Assembly: GCA_035543055.1 (NCBI GenBank)
Contig: DATKKJ010000058.1
Span: 1 to 48,753, forward strand
DNA from: Terriglobales bacterium
Lineage (GTDB): Bacteria; Acidobacteriota; Terriglobia; Terriglobales; Acidobacteriaceae
Length of the DNA stretch: 48,753 nt
Direction of reading: 5' to 3'
The position numbers and the translations under genes are program-made. Under the pieces are notes generated by a model. The model searched no databases, was not told the origin of the DNA, and saw nothing but the letters and a program-made list of their open reading frames with translations. Below, piece after piece: positions 562-45,739 of the stretch. How positions within the stretch are numbered: the stretch's first letter is position 1; each line of letters starts with the position of its first letter.

Positions 562-887
<326 letters not shown>

Positions 888-891
<4 letters not shown>

Positions 892-915
892 CTAGTAGCT
901 GGTAGTTAGTAGCTA
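888..915. repeat. Direct heptamer array, 4 units of GTAGCTA
   Basis: Four head-to-tail 7-mers: GTAGCTA, GTAGCTG, GTAGTTA, GTAGCTA. The first unit contains the rpsJ TAG stop codon. There is no inverted partner array. A short TCCCC-GCT-GGGGA hairpin follows at 929-941, before rplC. Confidence 0.8.
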
Positions 916-960
916 GGAAAACCTACAGTCCCCGCTGGGGATGATGAGGAAGAGAAGACA

Positions 961-2417: not shown

Positions 2418-2710
2418 TGAAGAGCGCGTATCAGATCATCCGCAAGCCGGTGATCACGGAAAAAGGGCTGGGGGTGAAGGAGACCGAGCACACGCTGGTC
2501 TTCGAAGTCGCCGCCAAGGCCACCAAGACCGAGGTCAAAGAGGCGGTGCAGCAGATCTTCAAGGTGAAGGTGGATTCGGTGCGCACCGCAAACTTCCAGG
2601 GCAAGGAGCGGCGGCGCGGGCGTTTCGCCGGCTACCGGTCCGACTGGAAGAAGGCGTACGTGAAGCTGAAGGCCGGCGAAAAGATGCCGGAGTACGCACA
2701 GAATATGTAG
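2417..2710 (+). CDS. rplW: 50S ribosomal protein L23
   Basis: L23 sits at the tunnel exit and docks trigger factor and SRP. The 97-residue product starts MKSAYQIIRKPVITEKG and carries the conserved KVKVDSVRTANFQGKERRRG loop and the terminal GRFAGYRSDWKKAYVKL. Its length is normal. The start codon shares a base with the rplD stop. The TAG stop lies inside the first unit of the following heptamer array. Confidence 0.98.
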   Translation: MKSAYQIIRKPVITEKGLGVKETEHTLVFEVAAKATKTEVKEAVQQIFKVKVDSVRTANFQGKERRRGRFAGYRSDWKKAYVKLKAGEKMPEYAQNM

Positions 2711-2789
2711 TCAGGAGTCGGTAGTCGGGAGTCAGCGATTCCCGGCGAAGGCCAAGGGCCAAGAGCCAAGAGCCGAAAGCAAAGAGCGA
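2707..2789. repeat. Two adjacent direct heptamer arrays before rplB
   Basis: The first array has four 7-mers, GTAGTCA, GGAGTCG, GTAGTCG, GGAGTCA (2707-2734). After 13 bases a second set of six follows: AAGGCCA, AGGGCCA, AGAGCCA, AGAGCCG, AAAGCAA, AGAGCGA (2748-2789). The first unit contains the rplW stop. The second array ends five bases before the rplB ATG, so its purine-rich units probably supply the Shine-Dalgarno. Confidence 0.8.
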
Positions 2790-7834: not shown

Positions 7835-7890
7835 GTTTCACGTTTCGCGTTTCAAGTTTCGCGCGAAACGAGGAACGGGAAACGCGCAAC
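7835..7890. repeat. Inverted heptamer array (GTTTCNN)4-(NNGAAAC)4
   Basis: Four 7-mers GTTTCAC, GTTTCGC, GTTTCAA, GTTTCGC are followed without spacer by GCGAAAC, GAGGAAC, GGGAAAC, GCGCAAC. The two halves can pair as a long imperfect hairpin. It starts three bases after the rpsN stop. The right half is more degenerate than in the copy at 15017-15072. Confidence 0.85.
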
Positions 7891-7959
7891 GAAGTAAGAA
7901 CCGTCGCCGCAGGTTCCCCGGCTGGCCGGGGCGAACGGGCGACGCGAGGAGAGCAATAG

Positions 7960-13905: not shown

Positions 13906-13910
13906 ATTTC

Positions 13911-13938
13911 GCGAAACGCGAAACGTGAAACGAGAAAC
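13911..13938. repeat. Direct heptamer array, 4 units of NNGAAAC
   Basis: GCGAAAC, GCGAAAC, GTGAAAC, GAGAAAC between infA and rpmJ, a half-array of the family at 7835, 15017 and 29961. The single TTTCGCGAAA palindrome at its left edge may be the remnant of the other half. The last unit ends six bases before the rpmJ ATG. Confidence 0.8.
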
Positions 13939-13944
13939 GGCTTT

Positions 13945-15016: not shown

Positions 15017-15072
15017 GTTTCGCGTTTCAAGTTTCACGTTTCGCGCGAAACGAGAAACACGAAACGTGAAAC
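15017..15072. repeat. Inverted heptamer array (GTTTCNN)4-(NNGAAAC)4, best copy
   Basis: Left half: GTTTCGC, GTTTCAA, GTTTCAC, GTTTCGC. Right half, with no spacer: GCGAAAC, GAGAAAC, ACGAAAC, GTGAAAC. It starts three bases after the rpsK stop. The innermost units pair perfectly and the others nearly so, giving a potential 28-bp stem in the transcript between rpsK and rpsD. Confidence 0.9.
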
Positions 15073-15145
15073 GATTTTGGATCGGGAAGAAGGGCTTGCC
15101 AGCCTGTAAACCGATCGGCACCAGAAACACTGAAGGAGAAAAGAA

Positions 15146-15775: not shown

Positions 15776-15889
15776 GGCTTAACGAAGGCCCAGCTTTTCG
15801 AGCCCGATCAGCCTTGGTCACGAAGATTGCGTCTCATGGGCCGGCGCGATTGACCTTGAGCAGCAGGGCCGAAAGGAGAATAGGTAAAC

Positions 15890-29960: not shown

Positions 29961-30031
29961 GTTTCAAGTTTCCCGTTTCGCGTTTCGCGCTAACCTAGAC
30001 CCCGTGAAACGCGAAACGTGAAACGCGAAAC
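29961..30031. repeat. Inverted heptamer array (GTTTCNN)4 - 15 nt - (NNGAAAC)4
   Basis: Left: GTTTCAA, GTTTCCC, GTTTCGC, GTTTCGC (29961-29988). A 15-base loop follows, then GTGAAAC, GCGAAAC, GTGAAAC, GCGAAAC (30004-30031). The array fills the whole gap between infB and the next gene and its last base touches that gene's ATG. A hairpin of up to 28 bp could form. Confidence 0.9.
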
Positions 30032-40464: not shown

Positions 40465-40471
40465 AAGGATT

Positions 40472-40551
40472 GTGTAATTGTGTAATCGGGGAATTGTGTA
40501 ATTGAAAATCGCCCCTGCAAATTACCCGATTACCCAATTACCCAATTTCTC
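40472..40551. repeat. Inverted octamer array (GTGTAATT)4 - 16 nt - (AATTACCC)4
   Basis: Left units GTGTAATT, GTGTAATC, GGGGAATT, GTGTAATT (40472-40503), a 16-base spacer, then AATTACCC, GATTACCC, AATTACCC, AATTTCTC (40520-40551). It is far more AT-rich than its surroundings. It lies between convergent gene ends, and its last unit overlaps the stop of the 58-residue gene. Confidence 0.85.
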
Positions 40552-40726
40552 AATGCCTGATGAGCCACATCACCCATCCGCCCGCGATGACTCCCGCCGC
40601 GAAGAACGCGAAGCACTTCGCTCCGTAGCGGAACATCTCCCGGGGGGTATTGCGCTGGGTGATGCCGAACACGACCGAGGCGAACAGCGAGAACACCAGC
40701 GCGGCGGAAAAGTGCGACAGGATCAT
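40550..40726 (-). CDS. Small membrane protein (58 residues)
   Basis: MILSHFSAALVFSLFASVVF begins a 58-residue protein with two hydrophobic segments (about 4-22 and 38-55), ending in WVMWLIRH. Its ATG overlaps the stop of the upstream membrane gene (ATGA), which is the main evidence that it is real. It has no recognised family. It forms the end of a three-gene set with the DUF6677-like gene and the M24 peptidase. Confidence 0.72.
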   Translation of the reverse strand: MILSHFSAALVFSLFASVVFGITQRNTPREMFRYGAKCFAFFAAGVIAGGWVMWLIRH

Positions 40727-45679: not shown

Positions 45680-45739
45680 CCACAGAGACACAGAGGGCAC
45701 AGAGAACCCAGAAAAACTCTGTGCGCTCTGTGCCTGTGG
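45680..45739. repeat. Inverted CACAGAG array
   Basis: Left units CCACAGAGA, CACAGAGGG, CACAGAGAA, then CTCTGTGCG, CTCTGTGCC, TGTGG on the right. Spacing is roughly 9 bases. It lies in the gap between yggS and the OPT transporter gene and is followed by a dispersed element copy (45746-45773). No terminator or promoter is clear. Confidence 0.75.

Follow-up and report, generated by a model that had tools for sequence, protein, structure and literature searches.

The window, by which we mean the whole 48,753-nucleotide stretch of Terriglobales DNA that was analysed, carries translation operons whose genes (rpsN, infA, rpsK, infB, a DUF503-like gene and others) are presumably those suggested by operon order. 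There are four places in which 7-base units of the form GTTTCNN, or the complementary NNGAAAC, are repeated in register. A preliminary description of this DNA had reported four such sites, and all of them were found where it had placed them (Table 1). These arrays begin 2-7 nt past the stop codons of rpsN, infA, rpsK and infB, which agrees with the earlier remark that they start a few bases after a stop.

Table 1. Heptamer and octamer arrays of the window (positions are those of the window; strand as reported).
Feature	Position	Strand	Description
rpsJ-rplC spacer	887..916	+	(AGTAGCT)4 heptamer array, takes in the rpsJ stop codon
rplW-rplB spacer	2707..2733	+	(NAGTCNG)4 heptamer array, first base at the rplW stop codon
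rplW-rplB spacer	2750..2787	+	(GCCAAGA)5 heptamer array
rpsN-rpsH spacer	7835..7891	.	(GTTTCNN)4 facing a degenerate GAAAC-type arm
infA-rpmJ spacer	13910..13939	-	lone (GAAACNN)4 arm immediately 5' of the rpmJ start
rpsK-rpsD spacer	15017..15072	.	(GTTTCNN)4 facing (NNGAAAC)4, 3 nt past the rpsK stop
infB to DUF503-like gene spacer	29961..30031	.	(GTTTCNN)4 facing (NNGAAAC)4, right arm reaches the next ATG
single-spacer octamer arrays	40469..40554	.	(ATTGTGTA)n and (AATTACCC)n, a less common period-8 variant of this type

Each arm of the rpsK-rpsD and infB arrays contains four exact cores. The left arm of the rpsN-rpsH array likewise has four exact cores and its right arm is degenerate. Relative to first-order Markov resamples, the predicted folds are stable at the rpsK-rpsD (MFE -31.2, z -3.16), rpsN-rpsH (MFE -27.2, z -2.12) and infB (MFE -36.7, z -4.54) sites. 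However, the hairpins of about 28 bp that had been proposed are overstated. When the two arms are compared, only 2 of 6 letters of the free dinucleotides match in the rpsK-rpsD array and 3 of 6 in the infB array, and since only the 5-base cores pair, the predicted folds are core helices with small internal loops. There are 18 copies of the sequence GTTTCNNGTTTC in the window, compared with 0.03 on average and never more than 1 in dinucleotide shuffles, which supports the view that a family of inverted heptamer arrays with a 7-base register is present that did not arise by chance.

The same window also contains heptamer arrays with unrelated sequence, and thus GTTTCNN is one word among several. 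There is in addition a period-9 array, (CACAGAGGA)3.7, at positions 45681-45712 that is possibly a nine-base relative of the heptamer phenomenon. A REP-like element (GTCATCCTGAGCG...CGAAGGATC) is located in the rplC-rplD spacer at 1687-1757, and similar sequences are found in the spacers of relatives. Conserved elements immediately 5' of rpsD, rpsH, rplC and rpoA (15077-15145, 7902-7950, 921-960 and 15776-15889) also recur in relatives and look like autogenous ribosomal-protein leader RNAs. The element preceding rpsD (GGGAAGAAGGGC...GTAAACCGATC) is one that we take to resemble helices 16-18 of 16S rRNA. No Rfam family reached its gathering score in the window, the leader-like elements included.

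There are 51 matches to the pattern GTTTCNNGTTTCNNGTTTC on 13 contigs of the bacterium's own 3.32-Mb draft genome (G000), grouped into 23 places, and none to the reversed pattern. The genome-wide search suggested previously therefore yielded neither a scarcity of copies nor a loss of the 7-base register. The four-unit pattern is found in 32 of 297 genomes of the phylum, and also in many other phyla, with at least 119 stretches in named genomes; Flavobacterium, Desulfobacterales, Planctomycetota and Verrucomicrobia are among the four-unit matches listed. Within the 119 stretches listed from named genomes, 97 of 146 runs of at least four cores have exactly four, and at 20 of the 119 loci an inverted partner lies no more than 120 nt away. 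The reversed pattern gives zero matches in G000 but is unusable as a null in the phylum's other families, because there it matches real arrays of the (CTTTGNN)n type.

Within 386 ribosomal-operon spacers from 21 genomes of the family, there are 111 arrays with a period of 7, compared with 1.0 expected from Markov resamples. Period 8 is represented by 11 arrays versus 0.7 expected, and periods 5, 6 and 9-12 by 0-2 arrays each. Samples from five genomes yielded 32 (G000), 18 (G001), 26 (G007), 21 (G029) and 9 (G026) spacer arrays, and their shuffles yielded none. The stretches from G001, G007 and G029 were evenly spaced, but 9 of 20 G000 stretches came from eight contigs with GTTTC matches and both G026:C6 stretches were picked near a match, and thus the densities for G000 and G026 are biased upward. 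The gene caller was home-made and its start codons are approximate. Array length has its mode at 28-32 nt, which corresponds to four units, and a total of 113 distinct canonical units is represented in 246 arrays. The GTTTCNN family is therefore real but was drawn too narrowly, being one word among many.

The tandem 7-base units in register are a feature of simple-sequence repeats, and one possibility is that the arrays are ordinary 7-bp repeats produced by polymerase slippage and then altered by point mutation. Bacterial simple-sequence repeats are over-rich in heptamers, for which a slippage hypothesis exists in the accessible part of the relevant paper (PMC4692102). Furthermore, some arrays are long and pure, such as 66 nt of TCTCAGT units in G007, and by eye the rpsN-rpsH spacers of G000 and G001 seem to be one 7-nt unit apart. 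However, runs of consecutive exact cores in the sampled G000 stretches comprise 5 of two units, 4 of three, 19 of four and 1 of five. This peak at exactly four (19 of 29), with no tailing off, is not a slippage-like distribution and bears out the fixed unit count claimed at the outset. An unbiased period scan of the GTTTC/GAAAC arrays of G000 found mismatches in 1 of 218 core cells versus 26 of 87 free positions, so cores are constant where the free bases vary, although the corresponding contrast pooled over all families, measured as the degree to which mismatches are concentrated at two neighbouring positions, is modest (0.726 versus a null of 0.628). In addition, a hand count of 26 same-spacer pairs identified 20 as inverted, 2 as direct and 4 as unclear. 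We therefore consider slippage unlikely as the explanation. A true unit of 14 bases with alternating free pairs was rejected, since identity at lag 14 minus that at lag 7 has a mean of -0.0007 with a null standard deviation of 0.0075.

Arrays are also found outside translation operons and outside spacers. Ten of the 19 GTTTC sites in the sampled G000 stretches fall within called ORFs, and thus the intergenic placement within translation operons described earlier is accurate for the window sites but not for the genome. Nine of these ten are within conserved proteins, and the remaining one is N-terminal in a transporter whose start may be miscalled. The in-frame hosts are GMP synthase (GuaA), ThiE (two arrays), ImuA, ImuB, DnaE2 near its N-terminus, a second DnaE2-like contig (two arrays) and a PMT-type glycosyltransferase, wherein ImuA, ImuB and DnaE2 are names assigned to RecA-like, IMS and polymerase III-like matches. 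A PIG-L family protein carries an extra array with fewer exact cores. The ThiE and GuaA inserts are among those with a single arm. A GMP synthase from the PDB aligns contiguously on either side of the GuaA insert, which it lacks, and the alignment with thiamine-phosphate synthase (ThiE) of B. subtilis has gaps at both array positions. The ThiE reading frames of G001, G004 and G006 continue through their arrays. Because 7 mod 3 is 1, a stop-free array encodes one heptapeptide in every frame, shifted in phase. The predicted peptides include FHVSRFTFHVSR, and no Pfam family scored above cut-off for the encoded heptapeptides.

The imuA, imuB and dnaE2 genes hold 5 of the 23 GTTTC sites of G000 (L138:2002-4382 and L140:14989-15331; contigs C47 and C68), for which the binomial P is about 2e-8 when these translesion-polymerase genes are assumed to span about 12 kb. 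Both DnaE2-bearing contigs, C47 and C68, end within the gene and are 84% identical in their overlap, and thus may reflect a duplicate copy or a second strain within the draft genome. The enrichment could reflect tolerance of inserts by these genes or a causal link to error-prone synthesis.

The position of the arrays relative to genes is not random. There are 70 array flanks within 10 nt of a stop codon versus 29.6 expected if arrays were placed in the spacer at random, and 22 near start codons versus 20.2 expected. By hand count, 17 of the 20 inverted pairs begin with the T-rich arm, 2 are in the opposite order and 1 is a tie, and arrays located near starts but away from stops are A-rich in 20 of 21 cases. 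At two G000 locations (L343:1039 on contig C20 and L347:1077 on contig C186) the initial G of a GTTTC array is part of a TAG. The array at L343 begins within a stop codon, since this TAG is the stop of the upstream gene, and one ORF call at L347 looks like a wrong-strand artefact.

Such placement just past stop codons is what might be expected if the arrays were selected RNA hairpins that serve as terminators, 3'-end protectors or translation control elements, wherein structure alone matters and sequence is free. Hairpins are indeed predicted at several sites in different genomes. Of 16 inserts tested at two DnaE2 sites (A and B), with those of G010 and G007 at site A excluded, 15 have predicted folds that surpass Markov resamples; z is -2 or lower in 8, between -1.9 and -1.1 in 7, and +0.19 for G012 at site B. 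Moreover, REPs no more than 15 nt from a stop are described as stalling ribosomes in the available part of one study (PMC12306157). However, pairing alone would not keep cores uniform from unit to unit within an arm, the free bases of opposite arms are unpaired, many arrays have only a single arm, and nine of the sampled GTTTC sites are within proteins. No U-tract was seen by eye at the window sites. These considerations cause us to regard selection for RNA structure alone as fairly unlikely.

Comparison of orthologous sites reveals that the location of an array can be shared where its sequence is not. The same-genus genome G001, which is 85% identical to G000 over rpsK-rpsD, lacks the DnaE2 N-terminal insert and the ImuB insert, and its ImuA gene carries octamer arrays at the position of the GTTTC array of G000. 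Arrays are present at one codon position of GuaA in 3 of 27 genomes, with the words GAAACGY in G000, AAATTAC in G001 and GAAACTC in G002. At this position there are 72 nt with no array in G006 and 3-30 nt in each of the remaining 23 genomes. At DnaE2 site A, 9 of 15 genomes carry arrays, and these are built from no fewer than six words, although that of G001 is weak (10 of 500 shuffles scored equally high) and the inserts of G010 and G007 were scored on their first 65 and 69 nt. Site B also has arrays in 9 of 15 genomes (for G010, 3 of 500 shuffles scored equally high), and several non-array inserts, including those of G037 and G040 at this site, were left unscored.

At the two ThiE sites, GAAAC is kept in G000, G001, G004 and G006 and the free bases differ, as judged from 14 of 15 loci, the locus of G038 being the one that did not align. 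ThiE site A has another weak array in G007 (1 of 500 shuffles equally high), and the corresponding number for G010 is 21 of 500. In the rpsK-rpsD and infA-rpmJ spacers, the heptamers differ between genera.

Mean unit similarity across genomes is slightly higher for the same site (3.78) than for different sites (3.67), with 9 of 500 permutations equally high, which suggests that some units are simply inherited. Such a weak excess speaks against simple vertical inheritance of every unit. Passive inheritance at such divergence should also erase the regularity of the arrays, and thus we infer that this regularity is either kept up or re-made. A change of word at a shared site might occur by rewriting in situ or by repeated insertion at a hotspot, and both fit the genomes compared.

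The free bases also carry information on the genome in which they reside. Their mutual information with genome identity is 0.950, compared with a maximum of 0.481 in 2000 whole-array shuffles, and for family members alone the values are 0.652 and 0.322. This sample covers ten of the 32 genomes with matches and, for each, the places listed first, among which overlapping matches were thinned out manually. The preferred free bases are AC or GC in G000, TA, TC or TG in G001, and GA or AA in G011. Slippage that acts on each site separately leaves such genome-wide dialects unexplained. The GTTTC arrays of G004 appear by eye to form two sets in which the first free base is either a purine or a pyrimidine and rarely mixed, and so this genome seems to hold two dialects.

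REP/BIME elements have an associated RAYT/Y1 transposase, and perhaps the arrays are likewise a MITE or REP family moved by an encoded enzyme, such as an IS200-like or RAYT transposase. The arrays are interspersed, palindromic and sometimes in frame within genes, the loops of some elements have TTCTTCCTCGCGC in common, and Y1 transposases (PF01797) are encoded in 29 of 37 genomes. However, across these 37 genomes the Y1 counts are out of step with array density, which speaks against a link to this transposase: G008 has 16 copies and no array in 7 spacers, and G011 has 2 copies and 99 GTTTC matches. Between genomes the elements lack a constant sequence, and an unsystematic search found no duplications. 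A family of this kind is thus quite improbable.

More improbable still is that the arrays are sites for a repeat-reading protein with a spacing of 7 bases. Such a protein would account for a fixed core, a free spacer and a fixed count, and S1, Csp or Csr were proposed by MacGregor for TAACTGA repeats, as stated in the available part of that report (PMC4679880). Nevertheless, there are dozens of unrelated words, these are swapped at orthologous sites, and arrays are also located within coding regions. None of these four rivals, namely slippage by itself, structure by itself, a Y1 transposase and a single binding protein, passes every test.

We favour, at about even confidence, the interpretation that the arrays of the window are members of an extensive class of short, interspersed palindromic elements, similar to REPs and RPEs, that are copied and rewritten in place. 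The typical element would consist of two inverted arms, each with about four 7-base units of approximately five fixed and two free bases. These elements would be non-autonomous, would resemble REPs or RPEs in behaviour and would spread by copying. At an occupied site, the array might be rewritten repeatedly from other arrays of the same genome, perhaps through short-homology copying or through a switch of template at the hairpin, and 7-base slippage might assist. Insertion into protein loops would often be harmless, since a stop-free array gives one heptapeptide in all three frames. When transcribed after a stop codon, the hairpin probably acts by analogy with the REPs of E. coli, such that it would shield the upstream mRNA end or slow terminating ribosomes. 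We make no claim for a single protein that would read every unit, and no enzyme or donor copy for the arrays was found in the genomes examined.

A stronger version, which is possible but on the unlikely side, is that an undescribed process dedicated to this purpose in Acidobacteriota, and perhaps in other phyla, builds palindromes of four heptamer units at fixed addresses and overwrites them with the current word of the genome. These addresses would include codon positions of essential enzymes, wherein the site is inherited and the sequence is replaceable.

One expects a short repeat either to change slowly by mutation where it stands or to move as an unchanging sequence. In these arrays it is the address that persists and the sequence that is exchanged, even within GMP synthase, thiamine-phosphate synthase and translesion polymerases, and a process of copying or rewriting is therefore directly testable. 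The arrays explain odd heptapeptide inserts in annotated proteins, offer a natural set of tolerated loop insertions, and provide a clean comparative system, in little-studied bacteria (Acidobacteriota), for the upkeep of palindromes and of 7-base periodicity.

The heptameric repeats of cyanobacteria are known as STRR, and the resemblance to them that was suggested early on is chiefly one of unit length; it does not extend to the fixed count, the inverted halves, the in-frame insertion or the site-specific swapping of units. Heptamer simple-sequence repeats are common in bacteria, and those described in the accessible portion of one survey, including the cyanobacterial repeats and the GGGAATC repeats of Xanthomonas, share with our arrays a 7-base intergenic unit, variation in sequence among relatives at the same spacer, and some inverted cases (PMC4692102). 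However, in that portion they are of one G-rich word type, and in-frame insertion in conserved enzymes is not described. TAACTGA direct repeats of Beggiatoaceae, Cyanobacteria and Bacteroidetes are likewise intergenic 7-base arrays that occur in ribosomal-protein operons, among other places. According to the part of the report available, they are of one word, direct (with a single indirect repeat in the main genome) and mostly located immediately before starts (PMC4679880), whereas the arrays described here have many words, form inverted pairs and are placed just past stops.

REPs, as portrayed in the available text of one study, are hairpins near stop codons, inside operons and between genes, and can slow translation (PMC12306157). 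The clustering of our arrays near stops is similar. In contrast, REPs share one consensus and seldom overlap coding regions in that text, whereas our elements have a large repertoire of canonical units and in-frame intragenic copies. The RPEs of Rickettsia are palindromic repeats of several families that are found in frame in unrelated protein genes and also elsewhere (PMC10969869). Our arrays resemble them in their in-frame insertion in unrelated conserved ORFs (GuaA, ThiE, ImuA, ImuB, DnaE2 and the PMT-type protein) and in their palindromic nature, given the inverted arms and predicted hairpins, although some inserts have a single arm. RPEs differ in being about 150 bp long with a conserved peptide, compared with heptamer arrays of mostly 30-80 nt, and the arrays have no family-conserved sequence or peptide, since orthologous sites carry different words. 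The open-licence literature yielded no relevant paper on heptamer, 7-bp tandem or intergenic palindromic repeats in Acidobacteria, and the accessible parts of the papers on heptamer simple-sequence repeats, TAACTGA repeats, RPEs and REPs do not describe an exchange of unit words at orthologous sites. Thus, heptamer repeats, REPs and in-frame RPEs are each known, but their combination with the swapping of units at fixed sites appears not to have been described in that literature.
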